A stretch of DNA of 64,000 bases from Sialis fuliginosa (Eukaryota > Arthropoda > Insecta > Megaloptera > Sialidae), in contig OY540809.1 of the NCBI GenBank assembly GCA_961205875.1, forward strand, positions 46,900,608 through 46,964,607, written 5' to 3'. Position 1 is the first letter of the stretch; the number at the start of each line of letters is the position of its first letter. The translations under genes were made by a program, and so were the position numbers. The notes beneath the pieces are model-generated. The model saw only the letters and a program-made list of their open reading frames with translations. It was not told the DNA's origin and did not search any database. Of the stretch, positions 6,275-49,384 are shown one piece after another.

Positions 6275-9200
6275 ATGTATTCTACTATACTCATTGTGTT
6301 TTTTATTTTCACGTTTTCGTCAGCGGTGGATTTCCAAAATTGTGGTGAGTGAATCATGTTTGTTGTTTATATAAATGTATATTATTTAATACACATAAAT
6401 ATCTATCTATCTAGCCCCGTCCTCATTCTAATAGTTTAAAAGTATACTTTTTTCAAAAGTACAAACGAATATAATATATCTTTGTAAGGGAATATTTTAC
6501 TTCAAAAGTTGAAATCATCTTTCTTATAGAAATTTTAATGATCCATAAAAAAATGTATATTTCACATAACATGCGTCGTTTTTGATGTATTAAAAAAAAC
6601 ATCTGCCAAGTAAATGCACAGTGCTTCCTCGTGCTAAATTCACCAAAGGTAGTTAATTATTCAACAATTTAAATAAAAACCGATAGTGTTCAGATAAATT
6701 GCCTGGAATTGGTTAACCATTTAATTTTTATACAATTTTACTAAAAAATATTAGTACGAAATTTTTCTTAAAATGCACCTGAATATTTTTTCATATATTT
6801 TTAATTTTTTGGTAATTTCAATCTAAATCTAAATTTATGCAAATGACAAAATGACATTTAAATATCAATTTAGAAAAACAAAACACGAATTTTTAAAATA
6901 AATTGAGATAAATCTTTGTAAGGGAATATTTTACAACAAACGTTGTAGACCCATATTGTAGGAAATTTAATGCTCTACAAAAAATATTGTATAAAATTTT
7001 CACATAACATTTGTTGTTCTTGAGATATCTTGAAAAAATAAATATTTTGGGGTGTCACCCCTCCCCCTTACATACAATTTTGATGAAATGGGACCGTCCT
7101 CAAACCAGACCCAACCATCTGACCAAGTTTCAATAATATCGGTTCAGTGGTTCATGAGTTATGCGTGTGACAAGGATTCAGGGGACAGACGGACGAACGG
7201 ACACACGGACAGACAGACACGGAACGAAAAGTGTTTGCGTTGACGTGAAACGGATAAATCAATTTAAAATTTTGAAATCGGAGAACATTTATTTTGTCTC
7301 AATCTGAAACGATCACAAAGCTTCTCGTATCTTCGATATTGCGAGGAAGCAAAAAGATTTTTATATGTAATCATTTACCAACCAGACCCAATTATTTTTT
7401 AATTTAATTTGATCACATAGGTTCGTCAAAAAGTGTTCGTTTCCATAAGATATTTAAAAAAATAAGTTTTATACAGGGTTTATACATTATTGTTGAATCA
7501 GACATTTATTTCAGTAACTTTTGATTGTATCATAAAAGTTAAAATAAGAATTAGCAGAGAGGAAAGATATGTATATGACTTCACTCGATTTACCTTTTTT
7601 TATTAAATTTTTTATTTGTACTATGATATAGGTAATCAATAGTTACTGAAACAAATATCTGGTCTTATAATAATACTACATACCATGTAGGTATCTAATA
7701 AAAATAATGTTGCATACTGACTTTTTTATAAATAGACATATACTATCAAAATGGCAATCATCATAAAAATATTAATGGTTAAACTGAACATTAAAAATTT
7801 CAAAATCCTCACTTGAATTTAATTATTAATTTTCAAAAATTATTTTTTATAATTATGCATTCTTAAATAGTGGACATCATTTTACATGTTCAGTAAAAAT
7901 TTCAAGTTTCTAGCTTATATAGTTTACGAGTTATTTAGCTTTGACTGAAAAGGACGGACGGACTAAGTGAGATTAATAGAGTTTCTTCGGAACCCTAAAA
8001 AGTTATAGCCATTTAAAGAATTTCCGAATATTCAGACTTTTGGGTACACCACCTAAACACATACAATTATTAATATTTTTTGATGTAGTAATATTCACCC
8101 CTTATAAACACACCGTTTAGGAAATCCCCCATGCATTACACGCTTCTTGGACACTCTGTATGTATATTTCATATATCTAGGTATAATAAAGTAAAAATAT
8201 CAACTCTACATTTTATTCTAGATGTTATTTATTTAGGAGTAGCTGCTACCCGCGGCTTCGCTCGCGTGGATTTCGAAACTAATTACAACCCTCCATACGT
8301 GACATGGGCTGAAATACATATTTAATTTTTCCTTTATTTGTTTTTTATTGATTATACAAAATCGTAAATATATCGAATTAAGGATTTAATTTTGGAAAAG
8401 CTTGAAATACGTGTTTCATTGTTTGTATTGAAGAGTATTTATTATAAGTTTCAAGTAAATCTGACCAAAAAATATTTTTCTTATACAAACTTATCTACCC
8501 CCTTGCACCCCCTTAAGGAGTTAATTTTGGTAAAAGTTTGAAATACCTGTTTCATTATTTGTATTGAAGAGTATTTATTTGAAGTTTCATGTAAATCCGA
8601 CAAAAATATATTTTTCCCACACAAACTTTTGCACCCTCTTTTATCCCCTTAGGGGTTGATTATCGAAAAATCCTTTCTTAGTGGGTGGTTACGTCATAAA
8701 AGGAAGACACCCTTAAAATTTCACGTTTTTAGGACCAAAAAATATTTTTTCCATACAAACTTTTACACCCTCTTTTACTCCTTTAGGGGTTGATTATCGA
8801 AAAATTCTTTCTGAGTGGGTGGTTACGTCATGAAAGGAAGATACCCTTAAAATTTCACGTTTCTATGACCAGGGGTTTCGGCTGGGCGATGATGAATCAG
8901 TCAGGACATGTTATTATATGTACATATATAGATATAGATTAAATCTAATTTGTATTTACTTTTATAGGTTCAATATACGACCTACAAGCAGTTGATATTG
9001 AAGGCTGTTACGAAACACCTTGCGATGTTATTAGTGGAGAACAAATTAATGTTACTGTAACATTTAAGGCGAAACGTATGTATATTATATTATATATAAC
9101 CCAACCAAGTTTCATTAATATCGGTTCAGTGGTTCATGAGTTATGCGTTCTATATTGCGAGGAAGCAATATTAAAAATGTATAAAAGAGTCACAAATATA

Positions 9201-33684: not shown

Positions 33685-34564
33685 TCCTTAATATATATAA
33701 AGCTCAACGTCTCTCTGTCTGTCTGTCTGTCTGTCCGTTAGTTACCTTATCACTCGAGAACCACTTATCCGATTTACGAGTTTTTTTTTTTAATTCATAG
33801 GTACGTTCTCTGGCCAGGTTATAGGCTATATTTTTTTACGTTAGGTAACATAACAACAAAGCAGTGACGATAATAGTAAATCAAGTCGGAAAAAATTTTG
33901 CCGTCGGCGCGCTGTTTTGTAATACGCTGCCTAAACCGTTCAATATAGAACAAAATAATGTATTAAAGAATTGTGTAGAATCAAAAGTTCTACAATTAAG
34001 TCAGCGACACGATATGTCTAACTTTTATATTTAAGCCACAATGACTGCTTTTATGTTACAAAGAAAACATAAAATATTTGGGTTTTGTTTACATGGACTT
34101 ATGACCTGCAAAACATTAATCCTTATCGAAATAAATGATTTCATCGTCATAAGTACTTAATGTAGATATAGTTTGCCATTTACAGCATCCAATTTGGTCG
34201 TATAGTTTAGAAAATATCTTAAAATATATTTATAAAGATAATATCTTAAATGTATGGTGTCGTGCCGCATCGAAGCGAGTACATCAGACTGGATTCGCTT
34301 ACGTTCGGTAGATATTCGGAGTCCCTCGGCTGATCGTTTGTGTTTATTTTGTTTTCAATAATTAACATTTAAATTTAAACAGAACACAAATTATTTGTAC
34401 TTTTTTCTTCTGATTCGTTTTTGTTAGGTAATTTAGGTATTGATTAGTTATTATTACAATAATAACTAATCGTGTTTGTACTTAATTAATTAAACTATAT
34501 TTTTCAAAAATCCTAAACAATAATTCCGTAGTCTACGCGAGCGAAGCCGCGTGGGCCCAGCTAG
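33685..34564 (+). mobile_element. Helitron family B, full copy
   Basis: 880 bp. It starts TCCTTAATATATATAAAGCT right after A and ends ACGCGAGCGAAGCCGCGTGG, GCCCAGCTAG right before T. These are the Helitron hallmarks: 5' TC, a 3' hairpin (ACGCG stem with CGCGT), CTAG, and insertion between A and T without duplication. No Rep/helicase coding, so non-autonomous. It inserted in the hAT-like element just inside its left end. Confidence 0.8.
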
Positions 34565-37311: not shown

Positions 37312-38216
37312 CAGTGTATTCCAAGTTCATTAAGGCGGCTATTACACTATCAAATAAATATGTCAAAGATCTTTGACAAAGATTTGATCATATTTCTTTG
37401 ATAAAATACGAGATTTTGTTCTATTACACTACATAAAATATTTGATAATATTTTCTCAATATTATCTAGGGATAGTTTCTTCTTTTTTGGTGCCTTTTGA
37501 ATATCAGTGCGTGGATGTTCGTCAATTGACGCGATCGAGGTTTGAATTTACAACCGTGTATTGTGGTTTTTATAATCAATAAGAAGATTATCATATAATA
37601 CTGGATTTTGTTGATATTCATATATTAATAATTATGTAACTGTAACTGTCAGTGATAACTTGGTAGTCGCCATTTTGTTTTTAACGTCAAAAAACTTTGA
37701 TCAAATATAAGAGACTGTCATTATCTATGATCATAGAAATATTATGAAGGTAAATATTATAAAAGTTGACTTATTACACTGTCATATTTCTTTGATTAAA
37801 GAAATTTTATCATATTTCTTTGATAGTGTAATAGCCGCCTAAGACATAGGAAATTTAACATGGCGGGCAATTAGAAGTGTTGTATTAGCCTTTGGTCAAA
37901 TTTAACGATGTGTGATTGGTGCATTTTGAAATGCCGCCACAAAATTTAATAAAATAGTCATTAGTATTTTGTTTTCAAATTTATATCTGCCAAAAAATAT
38001 TATTATAATTTTATCTAGGATGCTTACTTTAATTTATTGTTGAAAACAAAATACTGTTGATTAATTTAAAATTTATCAGTTAGTTTCGAGGCGGCATTTC
38101 AAAATGCACCAATCACACATCGTTAAATTTGACCAAAGGCTACTACAACATTTCTTATTGTCCCCATGTTAAATTTCCTATGTCTTAATCAACTTGGAAT
38201 ACACTGTATAATGCTG
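37312..38216. mobile_element. TA-flanked MITE (CAGTGTATTCCAAGTT) interrupted by a Harbinger MITE
   Basis: The ends CAGTGTATTCCAAGTTCATT (left) and its near-complement (right) extend over more than 40 bp, including AAGACATAGGAAATTTAACA. TA flanks both sides. The left inverted repeat is split at CATTAA by the element at 37334-37839; the right repeat (complement reads GATTAAGACATAGG) serves as empty site. CAGTG ends and TA suit mariner/pogo types. Confidence 0.8.
37334..37839. mobile_element. PIF/Harbinger-type MITE (GGCGGCTATTACACTATCAA), intact copy
   Basis: 506 bp. Inverted ends GGCGGCTATTACACTATCAA flanked by TAA triplets (37331-37333 and 37840-37842). The host has one TAA, proving a 3-bp duplication typical of PIF/Harbinger. 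The GTCGCCATTTTGTTTTTAAC and TCAATTGACGCGATCGAGG blocks recur in the interrupted copy at 46230-49187. Confidence 0.85.
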
Positions 38217-46056: not shown

Positions 46057-46426
46057 CAATTAAATGTGTACCGGAATTCCGACCGGAACTCACGATGTAG
46101 AATTAAAGTAAATATTTTAACGTCACTATTATTATGTTAAATGTTTAATACATTACATAGATTATTACCTTAAATTAATATAATATTATTTTATATAATA
46201 CATATCCTGTAATTTTTACAGCTTCGTAAGGCGGCTATTACACTATCAAAGAAATATGATAAAATTTCTTTGATCAAAGAAATATGACAGTGTAATAAGT
46301 CAACTTTTATAATATTTACCTTCATAATATTTCTATGATCATAGTTAATGCCAGTCTCTTATATTTGATCAAAGTTTTTTGACGTCAAAAACAAAATGGC
46401 GACTACCAAGTTATCACTGACAGTTA

Positions 46427-47201
46427 AGCTACGGTTTCCTAGGAAAGCGGTGCCGTTATCTAACGGCCGTAATGAAGCAGTGAGTGACGTCACCAAAACG
46501 TTGTCTAGGAAAACCATTGGTGTTGGTTTCCTAGAAAACGTTGAGTGCTACCGTAACGTCAAATAGCGGTGCCGTTATTTATATGACGGTCGCCATAGCG
46601 GTGACAAACAGTTTTCGAACGTTTTTTCGCGTGTAGCGGTGAACATTTCATTAAAAATAATGAGTATAAACGTGATTTGGACTAGTGAAAATAACATTTT
46701 TTTCAAAAATCATCAACATTAAATGCAAAGGGTATAGACAAGCCCAGTTTCAACAAAAATACATATATGGAACAATATTAGAATTATACTTCAAAATCAG
46801 AATTTGTATAATACTAAAAATAAAAAATTACTTCACAAGTATACACAACTTTTCTTTTGAGAATATGGGATTTTTGTAATTTTTCATCAATGCACTGTAG
46901 ACAGCGACACTTTATTATTTGAAATGTACCCTCAGTAGCACGATTTTAAACATCACACTCCTCCAAACGAAAGTTTTCTTCTTCGGTTTAACTCCTCATC
47001 TTCCAAATATGCTAATAATGCTATGTCTAAATCGTCCATTTACCACTGCTATACTGAGTGACTACGATTGAGTACGGTTACTAGATACTAGCACCGCTTT
47101 CTAGGAAACCATAGCTTCGTCACCGTTAAGACGGCCGTTAAAAACGCCCGCCATATCACGGCCGTTAGATAACGGTACCGCTTTCCTAGGAAACCGTAGC
47201 T
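46427..47201 (-). mobile_element. PIF/Harbinger element with long inverted ends and transposase remnant
   Basis: 775 bp. Both ends read AGCTACGGTTTCCTAGGAAA inwards and continue GCGGT.CCGTTATCTAACGG. TTA is duplicated at 46424-46426 and 47202-47204. The host copy (complement of ACTGTAACTGTCAGTGATAA) has a single TTA. The minus strand encodes a short N-terminal transposase remnant at 47039-46953. Confidence 0.85.
46953..47039 (-). pseudogene. N-terminal remnant of Harbinger-type transposase
   Basis: 28 residues from ATG to TGA: MDDLDIALLAYLEDEELNRR then RKLSFGGV. An acidic, leucine-rich start followed by an Arg cluster is the usual opening of PIF/Harbinger transposases before the aromatic-rich segment. 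The frame stops soon after the cluster, and the DDE core is absent. Assignment rests on this pattern plus the TTA duplication of the surrounding element. Confidence 0.45.
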
Positions 47202-47215
47202 TTACAGTTACATAA

Positions 47216-48889
47216 TCTATATACATATAATAACATGTCCTGACTGATTCATCATCGCCCAGCCGAAACCCCTGGTCCTAGAAACGTGAAATTTTAAGGG
47301 TATCTTCCTTTTATGACGTAACCACCCACTAAGAAGGGATTTTTCGATAATCAACCCCTAAGGGAGTAAAAGAGGGTGTAAAAGTTTGTATGAAAAAAAT
47401 ATTTTTTGGTCCTAGAAACGTGAAATTTTAAGGGTGTCTTCCCTTTATGACGTAATCACACACTAAGAAAGGATTTTTCGATAATCAACCCCTAAGGGGA
47501 TATAGAGGGTGTAAAAGTTTGTATGGGAAAAACATTTTTTGATCGGATGTACTTGAAACTTAAAATAAATACTCTTCAATACAAACAATGAAACACGTAT
47601 TTCAAGCTTTTCCAAAATTAACTCTTTAAGGGGGTGCAAGGGGGTGGATAAGTTTGTATGGGAAAAATATTTTTTGGTCAGATTTACCTGAAACTTAAAA
47701 TATATACTTTTCAATACAAACAATGAAACACATGTTTCAGCTTTTTCCAAAATTAAACCCTTAAATGGGGTAAGAGGGTGTAAAAGTTTGTATGGGAAAA
47801 ATATTTTTTGGTCGGATTTAATTCAAACTTTAAATAAATACTCTTCAATACAAACAATGAAACACGTATCTCAAGCTTTTCCAAAATTAAATCATTAAGG
47901 GGGTGCAAGGGGGTGGATAAGTTTGTATAGGAAAAATATTTTTTGGTCAGATTTACTTGAAACTTAAAATAAATACTCTTCAATACAAACAATGAAACAC
48001 GTATTTCAACATTTCCCAAAATTAAACCCTTAAGGGGGTGTAAGGGGGTGGATATGTTTGCATAGGAAAATATTTTTTGATCGGATTTACTTTAAACTTA
48101 AAATAAATACTCTTCAATACAAATAATGAAACACGTTTTTCAGCATTTACCAAAATTCATCCCTTAAGGGGTTGCAAGGGGGTGATAAAGTTTGTTGAGA
48201 TTTTTTTTGCACTCACTCAAATGAAACTTTGCACAAATAATCTATCAGACAAATAACATTTTCGAAAATTCAACCCCTAAGGGATGACGGAGGTGTAAGG
48301 TGTAAGGTAAATTTGGACAAAATAATATTCAATAAAATTACAAATTTCGTCAATCAACCCCTAATAGCGTAAGAGGGGGACGAGGATGGATTTTTGATAT
48401 GTTTACTGCATAGCTGCTTATGTTATAAAGGTGAATTCCGGCAAAACAGTCTTCAATAAAAATAAAAAATTCGACATTCAACTCCTAATGGAGGGGGTCT
48501 ACAAGGGGTGGGTTTCTGCAATTTTTAACTAACAATAAGTTCCGAGATATTTACGATTTTTTATAGGTAATGAATAAAAATAAATAATTATTTAATATGT
48601 CATCCTCTGTCACGCGTGGAGGGTTGTAATACAGCGGGAAAATATTACGGGGGAGGGAGTTTTAGGGGGGAAAGCAACCTCCTATCTAGCATTGGAGCCG
48701 AGATATTTTGTATAGGAAAAATATTTTTGACCGGATTTATTTGAAACTTAAAATAAATACTCTTCAATACAAACAAATAATCAATAAAAAAACAAATAAA
48801 GGAAATTTAAATATTTCACCCCATGCCACGTATGGAGGGTTGTATTTAGTTTCTAAATCAACGCGAGCGAAGCCGCGGGTAGCAGCTAG
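47216..48889 (+). mobile_element. Helitron family A, complete non-autonomous copy (1,674 bp)
   Basis: It starts TCTATATACATATAATAACA and ends ACGCGAGCGAAGCCGCGGGT, AGCAGCTAG. The left neighbour is A and the right T. The uninterrupted MITE copy at 37334 reads, in complement, CAGTTACATAATTATTAATA, so the Helitron sits exactly between CATAA and TTATTAAT with no target duplication. Inside are conserved blocks (CATGTCCTGACTGATTCATC, TATGACGTAACCACCCACTA, TCAACCCCTAAGGG) and about five 135-bp tandem repeats. No Rep/helicase coding. Confidence 0.9.
47490..48200 (-). repeat. 135-bp minisatellite inside the Helitron
   Basis: About five units of 134-135 bp, spaced by the recurrent CCAAAATTAA at 47612, 47747, 47881, 48015 and 48150. 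Units contain AGTTTGTATGGGAAAAATAT and AACAATGAAACACG. Read leftwards, units keep a partly open frame with a repeating SLFVLKSIYFKFQVNLTKKY peptide. A two-unit version lies in the shorter copy at 8239-8938. Confidence 0.75.
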
Positions 48890-49384
48890 TTATTAATATA
48901 TGAATATCAACAAAATCCAGTATTATATGATAATCTTCTTATTGATTATAAAAACCACAATACACGGTTGTAAATTCAAACCTCGATCGCGTCAATTGAC
49001 GAACATCCACGCACTGATATTCAAAAGGCACCAAAAAAGAAGAAAATATCCCTAGATAATATTGAGAAAATATTATCAAATATTTTATGTAATGTAATAG
49101 AACAAAATCTTGTATTTTATCAAAGAAATATGATCAAATCTTTGTCAAAGATCTTTGACATATTTATTTGATAGTGTAATAGCCGCCTAGGTCGATCGTT
49201 TCAAATAGTTTGTATAGCAAACGTTCTTTTCGATCGAATGGAATTACATTTCTAATGTCAAATTATAAATGTGATAAATCACAAACAGCATTTTTACAAA
49301 TATTCACATCGTGAGTTCCGGCCGGAATTCCGGTATACCTCTAATCTCAATAGATTCAGATATCTGAGAATTTAGGTAACATCC

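Follow-up and report, generated by a model that had tools for sequence, protein, structure and literature searches.

What kind of element is the 1674 bp insert at 47216-48889 of this locus, and what does it recognise in the DNA into which it goes? The window (the whole stretch of 64,000 nucleotides that was analysed) holds the insert within a MITE with GGCGGCTATTACACTATCA termini and TAA/TAG flanks (46230-49187, forward strand), which is broken by two insertions. The initial annotation had pointed to an uninterrupted copy of the same MITE in the window, and this was confirmed: the copy at 37334-37839 (reverse strand, 506 bp, TAA at both sides) serves as a paralogous empty site, its reverse complement agreeing by Blast with 46230-46432 at 198 of 204 positions and with 48887-49187 at 297 of 301. 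The description of the host as a Harbinger-type MITE with an empty site held; the Harbinger label is presumptive and drawn from the terminal inverted repeats and the TAA duplication, which we take to be marks of that group. An inverted repeat (89% over 45 bp, 46059-46103 and 49302-49345) brackets the host MITE and perhaps belongs to a further nested element outside it.

For the comparison with the empty site, the insert was set aside together with the second insertion of the host MITE, an element with terminal inverted repeats at 46427-47201 (forward strand) whose termini agree at 39 of their first 40 bases, and one copy of its TTA target duplication. In the empty copy the sequence ...TTACATAA meets TTATTAATATATG... 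with neither loss nor duplication, so that the join CATAA^TTATTAAT is seamless, as the initial annotation had stated. The statement that this alignment fixes both termini to the base was found to be too strong: T is the first base of both the element and the right flank, which leaves a one-base ambiguity in the single empty site, and 47217-48890 fits as well. It is the ends of other copies that settle the termini as TC...CTAG and therefore favour 47216-48889.

With these termini the insert (forward strand) starts with TCTATATACA and ends in the hairpin CGCGAGCGAAGCCGCG followed by GGTAGCAGCTAG (48862-48889), with A as left and T as right neighbour. This is in accordance with the initial reading of a Helitron running from TC to a hairpin and CTAG, between A and T inside the MITE. 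The left terminal sequence TCTATATACATATAATAACATGTCC (47216-47240) is microsatellite-like in its first part, which varies in length between copies. The TC at 47216 and the CTAG at 48886-48889 are both common to the relatives and correspond to the 5' TC and 3' CTRR of canonical Helitrons (Helitron1). The hairpin of the insert is GC-rich, stops 12 nt before the 3' end and has one bulged base, within the 10-15 nt at which the GC-rich hairpin of canonical elements lies; 48841-48889 folds with an energy of -11.3 kcal/mol (RNA parameters). Insertion occurs between A and T with no target duplication at the empty sites, as in canonical elements, with one relative (L005, G^T) as exception. This A^T insertion together with TC...CTAG departs from the T/T site of Helentrons and HINEs, and no terminal inverted repeats are apparent in the insert's ends as read. 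No long reading frame is present in 47216-48889, and 134/135-bp tandem repeats occupy 47273-48195 in an amount that differs among the family members. Given these two features and the ends of the relatives, the insert is a non-autonomous canonical Helitron, ordinary in kind.

The relatives, called family A here, were collected by a search of the insect's own genome, which gave 83 matches; 40 of 4490 first-look candidates were scored. The comparison covered 41 sequences, namely these loci (L001-L040), chosen by similarity to 47216-48889, and a second copy in the window. The 5' base aligned in 33 loci and the 3' base in 33 loci, so that with the second window copy the 3' end is kept in 34 of 41. 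Family-A ends read TCTATATACATA...GTAGCAGCTAG. Most compared copies start at TC with a slightly length-variable 5' end (TCTATATACA, TCTTCTATATACA and others), and L004 and L016 start unlike the rest. The second window copy (8239-8938, reverse strand, 5' boundary placed by eye) has a 3' end mutated to CTAC, and its flank tcctaaATA fits the target motif described below. The genome search for further copies ending in the same CTAG hairpin, proposed in the initial annotation, yielded 336 exact ends of family-A type and 1030 with at most one mismatch over 27 bases; the reversed control yielded 0. Homology running past the termini, which had been named as a sign against them, was also looked for. 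The nearest relative, L002, is 99% identical (13 differences in 1674), and its similarity stops 11 bp beyond the 3' end, with no common flank further on. This overlap is the shared target motif. L038 and L040 have identical 30-base 5' flanks, with the 3' end found for neither, and are probably duplicated DNA.

Comparison of the flanks revealed a feature that was absent from the initial annotation. On the 3' side of 33 ends, position +1 is T in 33, +7 is A in 33, +8 is T in 32 and +9 is A in 32, and the bases from +2 to +6 are mixed, G and C included. On the left side, -1 is A in 30 of 33 and -3 is T in 31 of 33; the exceptions at -1 are two 5' length variants (L002, L007) and the G of L005. 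In the window copy the motif is split by the insert into an upstream half TAA (47213-47215, consensus T-W-A) and a downstream half T-TATTA-ATA (48890-48898, consensus T-N5-ATA), both on the forward strand. After L034 and L032, whose hosts are shared with other rows, were dropped, 32 independent flanks remained, and 31 of them carry ATA at +7 to +9, the sole miss being L004. As background, these flanks contain 1074 AT dinucleotides, of which 52 have ATA at the same distance. Across offsets 10 to 290 it occurs in 1.3 of 32 flanks on average and 7 at most, and offset +9 has 10; offsets +6 and +8 are no neutral controls, since neither can hold ATA when it stands at +7. The group thus lands at a far more specific site than the usual A/T pair, with T-W-A^T-N5-ATA as the preferred site.

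Genome counts were made by pattern, free of selection by similarity to the insert. T-N5-ATA follows 230 of the 336 exact family-A-type ends, duplicated DNA included, leaving 106 misfits. At least 34 of these misfits carry ATA at +6 (prefix one base longer), so the spacing of the motif is not fixed; ATA at +6 exceeds chance, which points to some tolerance of a spacer shorter by one base. Taken in genome order, the first 100 such ends comprise 72 that fit, 7 with ATA at +6 and 21 with neither. A second group, family B, is represented in the window by a Helitron at 33685-34564 (forward strand, TCCTTAATATATATAAAGC...GCGAGCGAAGCCGCGTGGGCCCAGCTAG, flank tttaccATA), and its exact ends fit T-N5-ATA in 629 of 1124 cases with 495 misfits, again with duplicated DNA included. 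For the misfitting ends, the motif may be a strong preference, or the flanks may have decayed, or other routes may place ends there.

The motif was found in occupied and in empty sites alike and is part of the target. Among the sequences compared, the paralogous empty sites of four copies (L005, L034, L036, L039) are seamless and already hold ATA at +7 to +9. The empty site of L005 reads G^T with the ATA nonetheless present, so ATA can persist where the A is lost. Three other readings were weighed against this result. That the ATA belongs to the element, whose true 3' end would lie nine bases past CTAG, could be suggested by its near invariance among similar copies, but the N5 spacer varies freely and the four empty sites hold T-N5-ATA with no Helitron; the reading is barely credible and was rejected on those sites. 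The insert could also be another kind of element, or an indel with TC and CTAG ends by chance, and its want of a long coding frame would agree with that. Against it are the exact and near-exact genome copies of the 3' end with their empty reversed control, the recurring TC starts and the existence of seamless empty sites, which make it highly improbable. A mere preference for DNA that is rich in AT and melts easily, as for Helraiser, gains something from the 70% A+T of the window and from the AT-richness reported as greatest on the 3' side in the available text of Grabundzija 2016 (PMC4778049). It is nevertheless very unlikely to be the whole of the motif, since a single offset carries ATA in nearly every independent flank, far above the other offsets, and the bases +2 to +6 between are mixed with G and C.

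In the portions of published text available, Helitron targets are described as AT dinucleotides with AT- or T-rich flanks (AT-rich on the 3' side), as TNAT in Fusarium and as TT for DINE-1 (PMC4778049, PMC5876387, PMC13286980, PMC4344730, PMC3789558, PMC6544945, PMC4038834, PMC5148889, PMC2374699). An ATA at +7 to +9 or an extended ATA motif was not found in those portions, and the sequence logos of the same papers could show it. As far as the portions describe them, Hel-2/BmHel-2 (PMC4344730), Lep1 (PMC4038834), silkworm Helitrons (PMC3789558) and Hel1 (PMC6544945) resemble the present element in their 5'-TC, 3' hairpin, CTAG or CTRR/CTRY end, A/T flanks and lack of duplication, and Hel-2 has internal tandem arrays as well. 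These elements of Lepidoptera and other insects, compared by description, are presented there with no extended target motif. Helibat1/Helraiser (PMC4778049, PMC5876387) is likewise described in part as TC...CTAG with A^T insertion, an AT-rich flank strongest at 3' and some non-AT targets; it differs in that a broad AT-richness is put in words, with no fixed ATA at +7 to +9. For FoHeli1/2 of Fusarium (PMC5148889), the upstream TNAT resembles the T-W-A^T found here and a similar ambiguity of one base at the ends is noted, but these elements are non-canonical and Helitron2-like, and the text available describes no downstream motif. Compared with targets described in such sources as little beyond AT, a near-fixed ATA at +7 to +9 is a concrete and testable recognition rule, which would aid the calling of exact ends and empty sites. 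The element itself being an ordinary Helitron, this extended rule is the part worth following.

The rule would also explain why one base of a repeat is used more than once, a second feature beyond the initial annotation. The host MITE has 74 AT dinucleotides but only 3 T-W-AT-N5-ATA sites on both strands, and one of these is occupied at the same base of the MITE type in the window copy, L034 and L065, the last seen from its 3' side only. The same site is empty at 958 places in the genome (at most one mismatch). A tree of 31 rows, built on 241 columns and with a bootstrap that had not settled, puts the window copy among eight sequences (100/99) and L034 outside them; L034 pairs with L021 from another host (98/96). 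The window copy is thus probably independent of at least one MITE-borne copy, L034, on a well-supported branch. The alternative, that a single Helitron-bearing MITE transposed and so filled the base three times, has in its favour that L034 and L065 are alike in internal structure; L065 is known from one side, and for L019 and L032, which lie in a common repeat of another type, shared ancestry is possible. The branching of the window copy and of L034 opposes this, as does L065, whose identity is 94.4% over 909 bp to L039, a copy elsewhere, and 93.2% to L034 over 1082 bp that include the MITE flank. Transposition of one loaded MITE is accordingly judged improbable, and repeated insertion at the preferred site is the reading kept here. 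L019/L032 were dropped as a clear case of repeated insertion, host and element having diverged alike. Their candidate empty site at 38183-37911 was also rejected as an exact one, a segment being missing there.

The 5' end of family B, TCCTTAATA, is itself T-N5-ATA (three copies), and the common 5' end of family A has its ATA one base earlier. CTAG|TCCTTAATA occurs at 7 of the 100 places listed, and at 4 of these 7 the next exact B end follows 896 to 920 bp on. Among the ends listed, one of family-A type (C1:35375006) directly abuts these nine bases. Apparent head-to-tail tandems, with B ends joined to TCCTTAATA, were noted at C1:5019828/5020724, C1:17617855/17616959, C1:38043945/38044842 and C1:45795433/45794513. 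The junctions may be read either as rolling-circle concatemers or as the outcome of insertion at the left end of copies already in place; they fit both. A tentative and rather doubtful extension is that T-W-A^T-N5-ATA is a true sequence-specific target read by the same surface as the transposon's own left end, so that Helitrons would hit the precise 5' edge of a resident B copy and form head-to-tail tandems without rolling-circle read-through. The target rule may in this way give a second route to tandem Helitron arrays.

Taken together, the insert is very probably a canonical Helitron of the non-autonomous kind with T-W-A^T-N5-ATA as preferred target, and a RepHel would move it in trans. In the proposed mechanism, a RepHel protein would act on 47216-48889 in trans and nick the target between A and T, and the transposase, or a target-binding part of it, would read the ATA at +7 to +9 on the 3' side, tolerating a one-base shorter spacer to some extent. 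TC would then be linked with the A flank and CTAG with the T flank, presumably by single-strand transfer, leaving no duplication. The initial annotation took the junction as proof of rolling-circle type insertion; this goes too far, as the A^T join fits a Helitron and shows neither a circle nor single-strand transfer.

As for the source of the protein, which for canonical Helitrons is a RepHel combining HUH and PIF1 helicase parts, the genome gave 30 matches to Pfam PF14214, one of them within a frame of 1675 residues that carries Helitron_like_N and PIF1 domains. The surroundings of 12 of the 30 matches (L041-L052) and 12 longer stretches were covered, and element ends may lie outside these. 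None of the stretches fetched around the Rep loci showed an autonomous element with family-A ends, and a family-B end stood beside L049 only. A further hairpin scan of ten stretches gave nothing; it required seven perfect pairs and would miss the family-A hairpin. The 3' hairpin was found 0 times in viral contigs. Three stretches, L053/L054, L055/L056 and L057 (C9:1.08 Mb, C12:0.95 Mb and C9:0.56 Mb), surround a RepHel frame that matches OTU weakly. Their main aligned pieces are more than 99.5% identical over the greater part of the fetched 9.9 to 13.9 kb, so that they are either duplicates, large and recent, or a Helitron-like element of great length. At C3:36.034-36.054 Mb, L061 and L062 form an inverted duplication of about 9 kb with 99.96% identity around a 1987-residue RepHel frame.
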